Below, in pieces: positions 57,720 to 62,754 of a stretch of DNA of 64,000 bases. Origin of the DNA: Chryseolinea lacunae (GTDB taxonomy: Bacteria > Bacteroidota > Bacteroidia > Cytophagales > Cyclobacteriaceae). The notes beneath the pieces were generated by a model. It saw nothing but the letters and a program-made list of their open reading frames with translations. It did no database searches and had not been told where the DNA came from. The stretch is taken from assembly GCF_016735595.1 (NCBI RefSeq), contig NZ_JAERRB010000004.1:434001-498000 (forward strand), in the 5' to 3' direction. Positions within the stretch are counted from its first letter, which is position 1. Each line of letters begins with the position of its first letter. The translations under genes and the position numbers were made by a program.

Positions 57720-58016
57720 TCAGTCAGTGTGATGAGGCACGATCTTTTCGTAGATACCGTTTTTGTTTCTTTCCGTCTCCAGGTCGAACCGTGTCTGCAA
57801 GTTGAGCCAGAACTCCGGCGAGGTGCCAAAGAATCGTCCCAATCGCAGCGCGGTGTCGGCCGACATGTTGCGCGTGCCTTTGATCAACTGACTGATGCGG
57901 GTCTGGTCCACGCCAATGGCCTTGGCCAGGGCATAGGGCGTTACGTTGAGCGCGTCCAGGAAGTCTTCCTTCAGGATTTCACCGGGGTGAACATTTTCAA
58001 GTTTCTTCACACTCAT
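57720..58016 (-). CDS. higA: HigA-type antitoxin (XRE HTH)
   Basis: 98 residues: PGEILKEDFLDALNVTPYALAKAIGVDQTRISQLIKGTRNMSADTALRLGRFFGTSPEFWLNLQ is the standard HigA/VapI helix-turn-helix with its dimerisation tail. It neutralises HigB and represses the operon. It follows the toxin gene by ten bases, the toxin-first order typical of higBA. Confidence 0.93.
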   Translation of the reverse strand: MSVKKLENVHPGEILKEDFLDALNVTPYALAKAIGVDQTRISQLIKGTRNMSADTALRLGRFFGTSPEFWLNLQTRFDLETERNKNGIYEKIVPHHTD

Positions 58017-58026
58017 ATCCTATGGG

Positions 58027-58308
58027 CTAGTGGTAGTCGACAATGGCCACTTCAAACGCATTTCCATTGTGCCAGCGGAAAATGATGCGCCAATGATCGT
58101 TGATGCGCACGCCATAAAAGTCTTTTAACGTGCCTTCGAGCTTTTCGAGTTTGTTGCCCGGCGACGTTCGCAGGTCGTTGATGGCGGCAGCAGCATGCAG
58201 TTGCACCAGCTTGCGCCGGGCGGTGGGCTGAATGAAGAAAGGAAAGGTGGTAGACACGGCACCTTCCCAGATCATTTCGGTTTCGCGCGATGAAAAGGAT
58301 TGAATCAC
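58027..58308 (-). CDS. higB: HigB-type RelE-family mRNA interferase toxin
   Basis: 93 residues with the RelE/HigB fold: RKLVQLHAAAAINDLRTSPGNKLEKLEGTLKDFYGVRINDHWRIIFRWHNGNAFEVAIVDYH. HigB cuts mRNA on the ribosome. The gene is toxin-first with higA ten bases downstream. The pair lies about 220 bases upstream of, and divergent from, the aromatic leader. Confidence 0.92.
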   Translation of the reverse strand: MIQSFSSRETEMIWEGAVSTTFPFFIQPTARRKLVQLHAAAAINDLRTSPGNKLEKLEGTLKDFYGVRINDHWRIIFRWHNGNAFEVAIVDYH

Positions 58309-58481: not shown

Positions 58482-58513
58482 TTGCATCTCAGAAAGAAAA
58501 CCCTCTATATTTG
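58482..58513 (+). promoter_or_regulatory. Promoter of the aromatic (Phe/Tyr) operon
   Basis: TTG (58482-58484), 21 bases, then TATATTTG (58506-58513), an exact match to the Bacteroidota TTG-N-TAnnTTTG form. A start near 58518-58521 would leave a leader of about 165 bases before pheA, beginning just ahead of the leader peptide ATG at 58533. Confidence 0.75.
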
Positions 58514-58532
58514 AACACGTTCAACACGAGAT

Positions 58533-58598
58533 ATGAAAATCAACAACACATCAGTTTACTTTTATTACTTCTTTTTTAGTGCCCAGGCGGGACTTTAA
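58533..58598 (+). CDS. Aromatic leader peptide of a Phe/Tyr attenuator
   Basis: A 21-codon ORF (ATG 58533, TAA 58596-58598), too short for ordinary gene calling. Residues 9-15 read YFYYFFF: seven aromatic codons in a row (three Tyr, four Phe), the two end products of the operon downstream. The stop codon overlaps the last base of the 5' arm of the antiterminator (58588-58596). A ribosome that finishes the peptide therefore covers this arm, while one stalled on the early aromatic codons leaves it free. Upstream bases are A/G-rich. The peptide presumably acts only through being translated. Confidence 0.88.
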   Translation: MKINNTSVYFYYFFFSAQAGL

Positions 58599-58662
58599 AG
58601 AGGTGTGTTGTTGAATAACGATAACGAAACTCAGAAAAGTCCCGGAAACCCCGGGACTTTTT
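58588..58662 (+). promoter_or_regulatory. Antiterminator / terminator switch of the aromatic operon
   Basis: Terminator: AAAAGTCCCGG (58635-58645) pairs with CCGGGACTTTT (58651-58661), 11 bp, 5-base loop, ending in a T-run. Antiterminator: CGGGACTTT at the end of the leader ORF (58588-58596) is complementary over 9 bp to AAAGTCCCG (58636-58644), the 5' half of the terminator stem. The two pairings exclude each other. A third pairing, CAACAACACA (58541-58550) with TGTGTTGTTG (58604-58613), encloses the aromatic codons and may shape the untranslated state. The terminator ends 22 bases before the pheA ATG. Confidence 0.85.
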
Positions 58663-58684
58663 GCTTTATGGACCTAGTGTAAAA

Positions 58685-59527
58685 ATGGCAAAGAAGAAAA
58701 AACTCAATATTGCAATTCAAGGCATCGCCAGCAGCTTTCACGAGATCGCGGCGCAGACGTATTTCGATCAACCCATTGAGACCATCGAGTGTTTGTCGTT
58801 TCATCGCCTGTGCGAAAGTTTGAAGACGGGCGAAGCCGACTATGCGGTGATGGCCATCGAGAACTCCATTGCCGGCAGCATTTTGCCCAACTACTTCTTG
58901 TTGCAGGAATATCACTTCAGCATCATCGGTGAGCTCTACCTGCCCATTCACATGCACTTGCTGGCGTTGCCCGGCGTGAAGCTGAGCGACATCACTTCCA
59001 TCGAATCGCACCCCATGGCCATTCGCCAGTGTGCCGAGTTTCTCTATGCGCTCAAAGGCGTGGAGATCCGCGAAAGCGACGACACGGCTCTTTCGGCCAA
59101 GCGCGTGAAAGAACTGAAACTGAAAAACACAGCGGCCATTGCCAACGAATATGCCGCCAAGAAATACGGGTTGCAGATTCTGGAGAAGCGCATCGAAACA
59201 CACAAAAAGAATTTCACACGCTTCCTCATCCTCACCAAACGAAGCAACGAAAAGAAGGAAAGCAACAAAGCGTCGCTCTACTTTGAAGTGGCCAACGAGG
59301 TGGGTAGCCTGGCCGATGCCCTGATGTCGTTCAAAAGCAACAGCATCAACCTCACCAAGATCCAGTCTATTCCCATCATTGGCAGGCCCAGCGAATACAG
59401 CATCCACATCGATGTGGAATGGAAACGTCGCAAGAACTACGACGACGCCATGCACCAGGTGTTGCGTCAGGTGAAAAACCTCAACGTGCTGGGGGAATAC
59501 AAGAAAGCAAAGATCGAATACAAATAA
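58685..59527 (+). CDS. pheA: Prephenate dehydratase
   Basis: 280 residues from the ATG at 58685 (MAKKKKLNIAIQG); an in-frame TTG at 58661 lies inside the terminator and is rejected. The enzyme decarboxylates and dehydrates prephenate to phenylpyruvate. The catalytic TRF motif is T178-R179-F180 (KKNFTRFLIL). The C-terminal ACT domain (about 200-280) has ANEVGSLADALMSFKSNSINLTKIQSIPI for phenylalanine feedback. No chorismate mutase domain is attached; that activity is fused to the DAHP synthase at the operon's end. First gene after the attenuator. Confidence 0.96.
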   Translation: MAKKKKLNIAIQGIASSFHEIAAQTYFDQPIETIECLSFHRLCESLKTGEADYAVMAIENSIAGSILPNYFLLQEYHFSIIGELYLPIHMHLLALPGVKLSDITSIESHPMAIRQCAEFLYALKGVEIRESDDTALSAKRVKELKLKNTAAIANEYAAKKYGLQILEKRIETHKKNFTRFLILTKRSNEKKESNKASLYFEVANEVGSLADALMSFKSNSINLTKIQSIPIIGRPSEYSIHIDVEWKRRKNYDDAMHQVLRQVKNLNVLGEYKKAKIEYK

Positions 59528-59548: not shown

Positions 59549-60748
59549 ATGATAACAACCGCCAACAGAATTGCACAGGTAGAAGAATACTACTTCAGCC
59601 GTAAGCTGGCCGAAGTGCGCGGCCTCGACACGCCCGAACTTCGCGTCATCAACCTGGGCATCGGCAGCCCCGACCAGGCACCGTCTGCCGCGACGATCGA
59701 CGCGCTCATTGCGTCAGCAAAAAATCCGGCGAACCACGGCTACCAGAACTACAAGGGCATTCCCCAACTGCGCAACGCGATTGCCGACTTCTATAAAAAC
59801 ATCTACAACGTTTCGCTGAACGCCGAAACGATGATCCTTCCCCTCATGGGTTCCAAAGAAGGCATCATGCACATTGCCATGGCGTTTGTGAACGAAGGCG
59901 ACGAAGTGCTTATTCCCAACCCGGGCTATCCAACGTATTCGTCGGTGGCCAACCTGGTGGGCGCAAAGCTCAGTCCCTATGCCCTCCGCGAAGACTCCAA
60001 CTGGGGTATCGACATGGAGGCATTGAAGAAGCGCGACCTCTCGAAGGTGAAGATCATGTGGGTGAACTTTCCGCACATGCCCACCGGTCGCACAGCATCG
60101 CGCGAAGAATTGAAAGAACTGGTGGACCTGGCGCGGAAGAATCAATTCCTGATTGTGAACGACAATCCCTATAGCCTCATCCTGAACGACGAGCCCATGA
60201 GCATCCTCTCCATTGAAGGAGCCGACGAAGTGGCGCTCGAACTGAACTCGCTCAGCAAGTCGCACAACATGGCGGGCTGGCGCATTGGCTGGGTGGCCGG
60301 CCGCAAGGAATATATCGAAGCCGTGTTGAAAGTGAAAAGCAACATGGACTCGGGCATGTTTCTCGGGTTGCAACATGCCGCCGTGGAAGCGTTGAAGAAC
60401 GGCCCCGAATGGTTCACCGCACTCAACGGCGTGTATGCCCACCGTAAACGCGTGGCCACAGACCTGCTGAACCTGCTGGGATGCACCTACTCCGAAAAAC
60501 AATCGGGCTTGTTTGTGTGGGCCAAAGCGCCCGACCACATTCAGGACGTGGAGAAGTGGATCGACGAAATTCTGTACGGCACAAAAGTGTTCATCACACC
60601 CGGTTTCATATTTGGTGAAGCCGGCCGCCGATACATTCGCATTTCACTATGCTGCACCGTCACCATGTTGACGGAAGCGGTGAAACGTATTGAAACATTC
60701 TTAGGAGACAAAGCCGCGACAAAAAACAAGGCTTCCATAAACGCATAA
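59549..60748 (+). CDS. PLP-dependent class I/II aminotransferase (aromatic/prephenate type)
   Basis: 399 residues of fold type I. LGIGSPDQAPSAATIDALI, the GSKEGIMHIAMAFVNEGDEVLIPNPGYPTY cofactor region and Schiff-base K237 (NSLSKSHNMAGWRIGW) followed by MFLGLQHAAVEAL are visible. Placed between prephenate dehydratase and dehydrogenase, it probably aminates phenylpyruvate and 4-hydroxyphenylpyruvate (or prephenate). Twenty-one bases separate it from pheA and eight from tyrA. Confidence 0.93.
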   Translation: MITTANRIAQVEEYYFSRKLAEVRGLDTPELRVINLGIGSPDQAPSAATIDALIASAKNPANHGYQNYKGIPQLRNAIADFYKNIYNVSLNAETMILPLMGSKEGIMHIAMAFVNEGDEVLIPNPGYPTYSSVANLVGAKLSPYALREDSNWGIDMEALKKRDLSKVKIMWVNFPHMPTGRTASREELKELVDLARKNQFLIVNDNPYSLILNDEPMSILSIEGADEVALELNSLSKSHNMAGWRIGWVAGRKEYIEAVLKVKSNMDSGMFLGLQHAAVEALKNGPEWFTALNGVYAHRKRVATDLLNLLGCTYSEKQSGLFVWAKAPDHIQDVEKWIDEILYGTKVFITPGFIFGEAGRRYIRISLCCTVTMLTEAVKRIETFLGDKAATKNKASINA

Positions 60749-60756
60749 GCAACACC

Positions 60757-61638
60757 ATGAAAGCAACGGTAATCGGTTTGGGATTGATTGGCGGCTCCAT
60801 CGCACTGGACCTGAAGAAGGCCGGGGTGGTGACGGAGGTGGTGGGCCTCGATCAAAACAAGGAACATGCCGACAAAGCCTTGGCGCTGGGGTTGGTGGAC
60901 CGCATTGGCGAACAACAGGAAGCCCTGGCAACATCCGACCTGATTGTGCTGGCCATTCCCGTGAACGCGCTGGGCAAATTGCTGCCTGCGGTGCTGGACA
61001 CCATTCACAAAGATGCTGTGGTGATGGATGCCGGGTCGACAAAAAGTTTGATCTGCCGCGCCATTGCCAACCACCCGAAGCGCGAACAATTTGTGGCGGC
61101 GCACCCCATTGCCGGAACGGAAAACTCCGGCCCCGAAGCGGCCTTCGAAGGATTGTTCCGGAACAAGACCAACATCATCTGCGAACGCGAAAAATCATCG
61201 GCGCATGCCCTTGACGTGGTGGGACAGGTGTTTGATGCACTGGGCATGAACACCATCTTCATGGAACCCGAAGAACACGACAAACACGTGGCCTATGTGT
61301 CGCACCTGTCGCACGTGAGCTCGTTTCTGTTGGGACAAACCGTGCTGGACATTGAGCGCGACGAAAAGAATATCTTCGCGCTGGCGGGCAGCGGTTTTGC
61401 ATCGACCGTTCGTCTGGCAAAAAGTTCGCCCGACATGTGGGCGCCGATCTTCGAACAAAACGCGGAGTATCTTAGCCAGGCCTTGCTGGAATACATCATG
61501 CACCTGCAGAAGTTTCAGTATTACTTAATGAAGCGCGACGCCAAAGAGCTTCATCGCATCATGGCCGATGCCAACCGGATCAGAGAGATATTAAATGGTA
61601 TAGAGCATAAACAAACAAAACAGCAAATCGCAAAATAA
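60757..61638 (+). CDS. tyrA: Prephenate dehydrogenase
   Basis: 293 residues. The NAD(P)-binding motif is G7-L-G9-L-I-G12-G-S. LIVLAIPVNALGKLLPAVLDTI, DAGSTKSLI and AAHPIAGTENSGPEAA, then HDKHVAYVSHLSHVSSFLLGQ, are the catalytic and prephenate-binding segments. It converts prephenate to 4-hydroxyphenylpyruvate for tyrosine. No ACT domain. Eight bases after the aminotransferase gene; the DAHP synthase gene follows after 12 bases. Confidence 0.96.
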   Translation: MKATVIGLGLIGGSIALDLKKAGVVTEVVGLDQNKEHADKALALGLVDRIGEQQEALATSDLIVLAIPVNALGKLLPAVLDTIHKDAVVMDAGSTKSLICRAIANHPKREQFVAAHPIAGTENSGPEAAFEGLFRNKTNIICEREKSSAHALDVVGQVFDALGMNTIFMEPEEHDKHVAYVSHLSHVSSFLLGQTVLDIERDEKNIFALAGSGFASTVRLAKSSPDMWAPIFEQNAEYLSQALLEYIMHLQKFQYYLMKRDAKELHRIMADANRIREILNGIEHKQTKQQIAK

Positions 61639-61650
61639 ACGTCAAGGCAT

Positions 61651-62754
61651 ATGAAGAAGACATTGCAACTGGAATCTATTTCGAAATGGCTGCCCACAGC
61701 CAGCAAGCCCATCATCATCAGCGGACCGTGCAGCGCGGAAACCGAAGACCAGATGGTGACCACCGCCAAGCAACTTGCCGCCACCGGCAAAGTGCACGCC
61801 CTGCGCGCCGGTATCTGGAAACCCCGCACACGCCCCGGCCAATATGAAGGCGCCGGCGAAGAGGGGTTGAAGTGGCTGGTACAGGCCAAGAAAGAAACCG
61901 GCCTGCCCGTGACCACCGAAGTGGCCAACGCCGCCCACGTAGACGCCTGCCTGAAAGCCGGTGTCGACATTCTGTGGATCGGTGCCCGCACCACCGTGAA
62001 CCCTTTCTCGGTACAGGAAATTGCCGACGCCCTCAAAGGTGTTGACATCCCCGTGATGGTGAAGAACCCTATCAACCCCGACCTCGAGTTGTGGATCGGC
62101 GCCCTCGAACGCCTCAACAAAGCCGGCCTCACCAAACTGGCGGCCATTCACCGCGGCTTCTCGTCGTTCGAAAAAGGTCCCTTCCGCAATGCGCCGATGT
62201 GGGACATGGGCATCGAGTTGAAAACCCGCATTCCCGAGCTGGACATACTCTGCGATCCCAGCCACATTGCCGGCAACCGCGAGCTGATCTCGTTCATCTC
62301 CCAAAAAGCGCTTGACCTCGACATGGCCGGTCTCATGATCGAAGCCCACATCAACCCCGATGCTGCGTGGAGCGATGCCAAACAACAGGTAACGCCCGCC
62401 AACCTTGCCAAAATCATCGACGGCCTGGTGGTGCGCACCGTGTCGTCAGACAACAAGACGTTCAAGGATACCCTCAGCATCCTGCGCGAGCAGATCGACC
62501 AGCTCGACGACGAAATCATGTCGAAGATGGCGGCTCGTATGAAAATATCGGAGAAGATCGGCCAGTACAAAAAAGAAAACGGCGTCACCATTTTGCAGGT
62601 GAACCGCTGGGAAGAGATCATCCAAACCCGCATCACGCTGGGCAAGGCCATGGGCCTCAACCCCGACTTCACCACCGATTTGTTGAAACTCATTCACCAG
62701 GAGTCCATCCAAATCCAGACCAAGGTGATGAACAAAGTGGAAGAGCGCGTTTAA
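61651..62754 (+). CDS. Bifunctional DAHP synthase / chorismate mutase
   Basis: 367 residues. The N-terminal part (1-265) is a type I-beta DAHP synthase, with IISGPCSAET (G25-P-C27-S), LRAGIWKPRTRPGQYEGAG, TTEVANAAHVDACLKAGVDILWIGART, CDPSHIAGNRE and MIEAHINPDAAWSDAKQQ. The C-terminal part (about 270-367) is an AroQ-type chorismate mutase (LSILREQIDQLDDEIMSKM, ISEKIGQYKKENGVTI). In related fusions the mutase domain binds prephenate and makes the synthase feedback-sensitive. Last gene of the operon, closed by a strong terminator. Confidence 0.96.
   Translation: MKKTLQLESISKWLPTASKPIIISGPCSAETEDQMVTTAKQLAATGKVHALRAGIWKPRTRPGQYEGAGEEGLKWLVQAKKETGLPVTTEVANAAHVDACLKAGVDILWIGARTTVNPFSVQEIADALKGVDIPVMVKNPINPDLELWIGALERLNKAGLTKLAAIHRGFSSFEKGPFRNAPMWDMGIELKTRIPELDILCDPSHIAGNRELISFISQKALDLDMAGLMIEAHINPDAAWSDAKQQVTPANLAKIIDGLVVRTVSSDNKTFKDTLSILREQIDQLDDEIMSKMAARMKISEKIGQYKKENGVTILQVNRWEEIIQTRITLGKAMGLNPDFTTDLLKLIHQESIQIQTKVMNKVEERV

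Follow-up and report, generated by a model that had tools for sequence, protein, structure and literature searches.

Ahead of pheA in the window (the whole stretch of Chryseolinea lacunae DNA that was analysed, 64,000 nucleotides), we found a leader that is very probably a ribosome-mediated transcription attenuator, which would sense charged tRNA-Phe and tRNA-Tyr and control the pheA-aminotransferase-tyrA-DAHP synthase/chorismate mutase operon. Phe and Tyr are the two amino acids made by this operon according to the Pfam and NCBIfam gene calls. The anatomy is that of an attenuator: a leader ORF with codons for the products, a terminator before the first gene and a mutually exclusive antiterminator, each with a predicted function. 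The region had been interpreted as a classical Phe/Tyr attenuator from its letters alone (hereafter the sequence-only reading), and this interpretation is strongly supported by the conserved anatomy and by arms that change in step. The features are collected in Table 1. On the other side of the leader, immediately upstream and divergent from it, a HigB-like toxin gene and an HTH antitoxin-like gene occupy 57720-58308 of the minus strand.

Table 1. Features of the pheA leader and of the operon that follows it (positions in the window)
Feature	Position	Strand	Evidence
Promoter-like pair: TTG (58482-58484), 21 nt, TATATTTG (58506-58513)	58482..58513	+	Sequence; pattern TTG-N17-23-TAnnTTTG
Putative leader peptide ORF MKINNTSVYFYYFFFSAQAGL and stop; 21 codons, ATG at 58533, TAA at 58596-58598	58533..58598	+	Sequence; intact in 79 of 80 related loci
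Putative regulatory codons: seven consecutive Tyr/Phe codons (9-15)	58557..58577	+	Sequence; 114 leaders compared: Phe/Tyr exchange, synonymous changes
Segment 1, forms a predicted helix with 58602-58614 unless a ribosome covers it	58540..58552	+	Folds; covariation in relatives mixed by measure
Segment 2, predicted to pair with segment 1; some of it also lies in the antiterminator	58602..58614	+	Folds; covariation of the equivalent helix
Arm A CGGGACTTT, candidate antiterminator 5ʹ arm at the end of the leader ORF	58588..58596	+	Sequence
Inner antiterminator: GAG/CUC (58600-58602/58630-58632) and hairpin (58606-58613/58619-58626)	58600..58632	+	Folds of the RNA freed by a stalled ribosome
Terminator 5ʹ arm (T5); 58636-58644, AAAGTCCCG, alternatively pairs with arm A	58634..58645	+	Folds; covariation
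Terminator 3ʹ arm (T3) and T run	58651..58664	+	Sequence; fold; covariation
pheA, prephenate dehydratase, first structural gene	58685..59527	+	Pfam PDT, E 5e-57
Class I/II aminotransferase	59549..60748	+	Pfam
tyrA, prephenate dehydrogenase	60757..61638	+	Pfam PDH_N/PDH_C; NCBIfam NF006307 above cut-off
DAHP synthase fused to chorismate mutase	61651..62754	+	Pfam DAHP_synth_1 and CM_2

The positions that the sequence-only reading had assigned to the promoter match, the ORF, the aromatic codons, arm A and its complement hold on direct reading. Arm A is the exact complement of 58636-58644, and in the window it shares one base with the leader stop codon. The predicted terminator stem comprises 12 bp (58634-58645 with 58651-58662) and is followed by the T's; the 11 bp counted earlier are right if the outermost pair, a G-U, is left out. 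Folding of the 138-nt leader gave a z of -5.0, and the terminator part alone gave -5.5. Parts added beyond the earlier reading are the predicted helix 58540-58552/58602-58614 (the 1:2 helix) and a longer antiterminator. A small CCC/GGG hairpin, perhaps closing arm A, was also seen in folds and was rejected when covariation gave no support; the structure tested was out of register, and slid versions of it were 75-78% paired.

Among ATG mini-ORFs of 10-40 codons on both strands of the 64 kb, the leader ORF is the sole one with seven, or even five, consecutive Phe/Tyr codons, and no seven-codon Phe/Tyr run appeared in mini-ORFs of 60 Markov-1 random sequences of 64 kb. These counts stand against the explanation that the hairpin only terminates an upstream gene and the ORF arose by chance. 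Intergenic terminators are common and the promoter pattern occurs at chance frequency, as such an explanation would have it, but the two family-matched ORFs just upstream lie on the other strand, and the mini-ORF, arm A and the hairpin recur together in relatives. Being contradicted by this conservation, the chance explanation is vanishingly unlikely.

The pattern TTG-N17-23-TAnnTTTG had two matches on the leader strand of the window against 1.65 expected, which is chance frequency and makes the promoter match weak by itself. The pattern stood ahead of the leader in 10 of 80 relatives, and a looser -7-like box was located at most 45 nt from the leader start at 41 of 81 loci. The sequence-only reading had named a start of pheA transcription past the terminator as an argument against itself; the pattern scan gave no TAnnTTTG box between 58515 and 58720, and hence none downstream of the terminator. 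The Bacteroidota promoter box is placed at -12 to -5 in the available text of PMC9723704, and from this position +1 would lie near 58518, leaving a 5ʹ UTR of about 15 nt. Shine-Dalgarno sequences are scarcely used by Bacteroidia ribosomes, as stated in the accessible parts of PMC6847099 and PMC9976891. An SD-like four-base word at -20 to -5 was found in one of 81 leaders, and the base at -3 upstream of the leader start was A in 23 of 81, which is no strong signal.

A PheA scan of the named genomes yielded 171 relatives, of which the best 80 were kept and all 80 upstream regions examined. With at least six Phe/Tyr in eight residues as the threshold, the aromatic mini-ORF was intact in 79 of these best 80 of the 171 related pheA loci, three of which start with GTG or TTG. 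In the sole exception (L091), the frame was broken by a one-base difference from L092 in a T run, which may be a sequencing error or a real loss. The terminator hairpin was scored in 79 of the 80; that of L083 lies beyond the cut of the scan and is present in the alignment. In five hairpin-bearing close relatives (L044, L076, L080, L104 and L107), the T run measured only 3. The mini-ORF is therefore as conserved as the sequence-only reading anticipated, and we found in close relatives no general loss of the aromatic codons or of arm complementarity, which would have counted against it. One part of the earlier geometry has a narrower reach: the overlap of the leader stop with arm A holds in the window and its own subclade, to which it is limited; many relatives have a later stop, ending 18-24 nt past arm A.

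Covariation in close relatives was evaluated on 79 distinct rows of 81 in comparison with 500 shuffles. In the terminator, 98.8% of cells were paired, 8 of 12 pairs had changed on both sides, above all 500 shuffles, and the two-sided cells numbered 67 compared to 15.8 in shuffles, none of the 500 reaching this value. The A:T5 helix was 92.5% paired in close kin, with 10 two-sided cells against 3.0 (reached by 1 of 500 shuffles) and a covariation score exceeding the shuffles. Its two-sided changes were found in only 2 of 8 pairs, a number reached by 383 of 500 shuffles, and its pair types were not above shuffles either; with only two such pairs in close kin, support for this helix comes from the distant comparison. 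For the 1:2 helix, 74.6% of cells were paired in close kin, with 83 two-sided cells against 43 (0 of 500 shuffles). Cells, score and pairing exceeded all shuffles for this helix, that is, three of five measures; in close kin, the number of changed pairs (483 of 500 shuffles) and that of pair types (413 of 500) were not above shuffles. The alignment of the 1:2 helix was out of register for the window's own subclade.

Farther away, the family set contained 139 genomes with pheA, from which 60 upstream regions were fetched; PheA was approximately 38-50% identical for 50 of them and more distant for the other 10. At 15 of the 60 loci, a terminator-bearing aromatic leader was located within 600 nt of pheA, and the covariance model found all 15; no leader was present within 600 nt at the other 45. 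The script had picked 17 of 60; L172 and L189 were dropped, having no matching terminator. At two of the 45 leaderless loci (L388 and L389, in G086 and G133 of one genus), an aromatic leader lies about 3.6 kb upstream of pheA. This position suggests that the operon was rearranged and that its attenuator stayed at what is possibly the head.

The covariance model R1, run on 395 class genomes, had matches in 272 of them, a tally that is not a prevalence, as many of the weaker matches are probably plain terminators. In the genome of the window, the true site scored 111.6 bits and the next match 35.8. When 26 R1 loci outside the family (L208-L233) were inspected, 18 had an aromatic leader before a pheA recognized by eye, and the other 8, scoring 47-50 bits, had no aromatic leader before pheA. 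A class sample was also chosen by PheA family alone, in which 35 of 129 genomes matched and 30 upstream regions were fetched; as for the remaining five, two (G000 and G069) are members of the close set, two (G086 and G133) carry the far-upstream leader, and G549 was outside the fetched set. In 20 of the 30 regions, a mini-ORF had six or more aromatic residues in a stretch of ten, two further regions had five, and eight had none convincing.

In many distant leaders, though not in all, the terminator and arm A appear to have been replaced together by unrelated sequences. The replaced cores were CGAGGCTTT/AAAGCCTCG in L230, GGGAGGCC/GGCCTCCC in L162, GAATCGG/CCGATTC in L388 and L389, and GGCAGGA/TCCTGCC in L382; the rewritten terminator arms, which include AGTCCCGG, AGCCCCG, GGCCTCCC, AAAGCCTCG, TCCTGCC and CCGATTC, each have a matching arm A. 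Among 28 leaders lacking the common AGTCCC arm, 20 had an own A:T5 pairing better than their mean pairing with common T5 arms, and in 8, L186 included, the own pairing was not better than that with the common T5. The arm test on the class sample comprised 24 leaders (two from G086 and G133), 23 of them with a terminator, with 100 shuffles each. The mean A:T5 energy was -12.3 kcal/mol with the own T5, -8.2 with the T5 of other genomes and -6.3 with shuffled arm A. The own pairing reached p <= 0.05 against shuffles in 18 of 23 and beat at least 90% of arm swaps in 12 of 23; five of 23 missed p <= 0.05, and L376 paired worse than swapped arms. In 18 class-wide leaders, the 1:2 helix showed no gain over arm swapping (-7.4 both). 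Compensatory changes of the arms, which the sequence-only reading had proposed to look for, were found for the terminator in close relatives and for the terminator and arm A together across the class.

These changes also bear on the possibility that the leader peptide acts on pheA translation, on RNA decay or on Rho-dependent termination, with an incidental hairpin. Other modes of control may exist in this genome, since the scan found no intrinsic terminator for its thrA leader, which has Thr/Ile codons. At pheA, a terminator-like hairpin is present in 80 of 80 close relatives (with a T run measured as only 3 in five), and the terminator arms co-vary, farther away also with arm A, which makes control at another level very unlikely here.

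The distance between the codons and arm A was similarly kept. In 112 of 114 leaders, arm A starts 7-15 nt past the end of the aromatic run, in a search that allowed any position up to the terminator and weighted G-C pairs; the arms are 5-10 bp long, 11 of the 114 being only 5-6 bp. With an assumed ribosome footprint of 12-14 nt, counted from the beginning of the A-site codon, the ribosome edge at codon 15 falls at 58587-58589 in the window, compared to the arm A start at 58588. Arm A would therefore start about where the leading edge of a ribosome stalled at the final aromatic codon lies.

Upon comparing the aromatic codons of 114 leaders, we found 0.55 differences per site at position 2, where T/A corresponds to Phe/Tyr, 0.47 at position 3, where changes are synonymous, and 0.14 at position 1, a low value that is partly a matter of construction because the runs were picked for aromatic content. 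The eight-residue runs of these leaders included 61 distinct ones, each with at least one Tyr and at least two Phe. Of the 912 codons, 25 were Trp, perhaps reflecting a contribution of the operon to the common pathway as well. The exchange of Phe and Tyr, the synonymous changes and the number of distinct runs indicate that aromatic codons are kept in frame and not one peptide. This pattern argues for translation of the leader and against nascent-peptide arrest, in which the aromatic peptide itself would stall the ribosome and the signal would be other than tRNA charging. Peptides that stall the ribosome include TnaC and SecM, and an unusual aromatic stretch kept at a similar distance to arm A would be in agreement with such arrest. 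However, the runs vary as described and their ends differ, the residues match the operon products, and His, Trp and Val/Leu leaders stand before matching genes; we consider arrest by the peptide very improbable. As Phe and Tyr codons exchange freely, both end products seem to be sensed by the leader, and the device probably reads Phe and Tyr together.

From the parts, their spacing, their conservation and their co-change, all obtained by sequence comparison, we infer the transcription start site, transcription of the genes as an operon, translation of the leader, its coupling to transcription, stalling, and termination with its relief. When Phe and Tyr are plentiful, the ribosome following RNA polymerase would pass the aromatic codons to the stop, where its leading edge would hide arm A and part of segment 2, so that the terminator folds and transcription ends before pheA. 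When Phe or Tyr is scarce, the ribosome would halt on one of the seven aromatic codons with its edge reaching no farther than the first base of arm A. The body of the stalled ribosome would block the pairing of segment 1, and arm A would pair with T5 as T5 emerges, letting the polymerase read on. If no ribosome starts, the 1:2 helix would enclose arm A and the terminator would be favored, giving a basal off state.

In folds of the leader in the window, a ribosome on any of codons 9-15 leaves arm A free. The RNA from 58588, with T5 made and T3 not yet, was predicted to fold into one long antiterminator of -24.7 kcal/mol, consisting of nine A:T5 pairs, three GAG/CUC pairs and the inner hairpin. 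For a ribosome that has reached the stop codon, the RNA from 58609 retained the terminator (-19.6), and the whole leader without a ribosome gave the helix 58540-58552/58602-58614 around arm A together with the terminator (-43.7). In the ribosome-free growing transcript, the 1:2 fold was best at 58615-58640 and again from 58655, and the antiterminator was slightly better at 58644 and 58647 (-27.3 compared to -26.6 at 58647); because of this, the basal off state would need the 1:2 helix to form first and to hold. In the finished RNA, the terminator (-28.9) was more stable than the antiterminator (-24.7), and antitermination must therefore be kinetic, set by the order of synthesis. Such dependence on the order of synthesis is also found in known attenuators.

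A structured 5ʹ leader with a terminator might also be expected of a riboswitch, a T-box-like element or a protein-binding leader that senses Phe or Tyr directly. Against direct sensing, the gathering score was reached by no Rfam family in the window or in 12 related leader loci (his, trp and ilv leaders included), and the aromatic run varies as codons do; we regard it as extremely unlikely. The best Rfam score in the window was that of RF01859 Phe_leader (26.3 bits, E 0.043), far below its gathering score of 55.

Other amino-acid genes of the same genome have leaders matched to their products. hisG (L259) is preceded by MRNTINIGIHHHHHVKHIVRGNAVS and trpE (L334) by MIRFTNIAWWWHRSELDM, each with a terminator; the His-rich and the Trp-rich leader were each present in 6 of 6 genus genomes, and most of the trpE loci shown had a terminator. 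A Val/Leu-rich leader, MNVLSVLVLVVVVILKPAGAMVI (L357), with a terminator read directly, precedes an ilvE recognized by eye, upstream of ilvD. In his (n=4) and ilv (n=5) leaders, the terminator has a complementary arm past the codon run, and the ilv arms have changed in step among relatives; no convincing arm A was found in trp leaders (n=4). The fused thrA gene (L343) is preceded by MQATFTIPFCGSFITKAAVACPFIITISIITIITG, a Thr/Ile-rich mini-ORF ending in IITG, and a small hairpin seems to lie over its stop codon. This leader was present in 5 of 5 genus genomes fetched (L341, L342, L343, L345 and L346), and the scan found no intrinsic terminator in the thrA leaders.

We consider it likely that Bacteroidia, which make little use of Shine-Dalgarno sequences, have a general and widespread set of amino-acid-matched attenuators (Phe/Tyr, His, Trp, Val/Leu/Ile and possibly Thr/Ile), the pheA version sensing two amino acids through interchangeable Phe/Tyr codons. 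In the window, the ATG of the pheA leader may lie only about 15 nt from the 5ʹ end of the transcript. With so short a 5ʹ UTR, initiation and coupling of the ribosome to RNA polymerase would be needed while the transcript is no more than some tens of nucleotides long. The reach of transcription-translation coupling beyond Proteobacteria is a current question; in a 2026 study, phyla are divided into those with runaway and those with coupled transcription, and its available text does not name Bacteroidota among the runaway phyla (PMC13323073). A conserved attenuator, if true, would supply genetic evidence from nature that RNA polymerase does not outrun the leading ribosome in Bacteroidia, and the pheA leader would be a ready reporter for testing coupling in Bacteroidota. 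It would also assign a function to leaders that, at the loci tested, have no Rfam family, and provide an example of a leader translated in the absence of Shine-Dalgarno signals.

The pheL attenuator of enterobacterial pheA has an aromatic ORF with Phe-only codons, alternative RNA pairings and an intrinsic terminator. The leader described here resembles it in the aromatic ORF before pheA, the alternative pairings and the terminator; in contrast to pheL, Phe and Tyr codons are mixed and interchangeable, the promoter-like pair is of the Bacteroidota type, an SD-like word is rare, and arm A is located at the end of the ORF. Attenuators were reportedly also predicted in Bacteroidetes/Chlorobi by Vitreschak et al. 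in 2004 (FEMS Microbiol Lett). The attenuators of Proteobacteria and Actinobacteria, as the available text of PMC1262725 presents them, are alike in anatomy, with product codons in the leader and a terminator and antiterminator sharing complementary segments, and differ in lineage and in initiation signals. According to a 2010 study (PMC2965389, accessible portion), no leader peptides from groups other than Proteobacteria and Actinobacteria had been demonstrated before it, and short ORFs reminiscent of leader peptides are mentioned for Bacteroides thetaiotaomicron in the available text of PMC7366714.

The closest likeness is in the same phylum. For the Flavobacterium psychrophilum transcriptome, strong hints of leader-peptide attenuation ahead of amino-acid operons were reported, with structured 5ʹ elements before pheA and hisG that are present in other Flavobacteriaceae and have no Rfam hits (PMC9723704, in the text available). 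Such leaders, which the sequence-only reading took to be scarcely described in Bacteroidota, are therefore not unknown there. The elements precede the same genes as here and are likened to the present leaders by description; their arms, their codon specificity and their spread beyond the family do not figure in that available text. A full-text literature search, outside which most subscription journals and supplements lay, found no description of the present arms, of the Phe/Tyr specificity or of the class-wide spread. The mechanism proposed here is classical, as known from E. coli, and was already suspected before flavobacterial amino-acid operons (PMC9723704, same portion); to the sequence-only reading, the comparison adds a predicted further helix, probable sensing of both Phe and Tyr, and a wide distribution.
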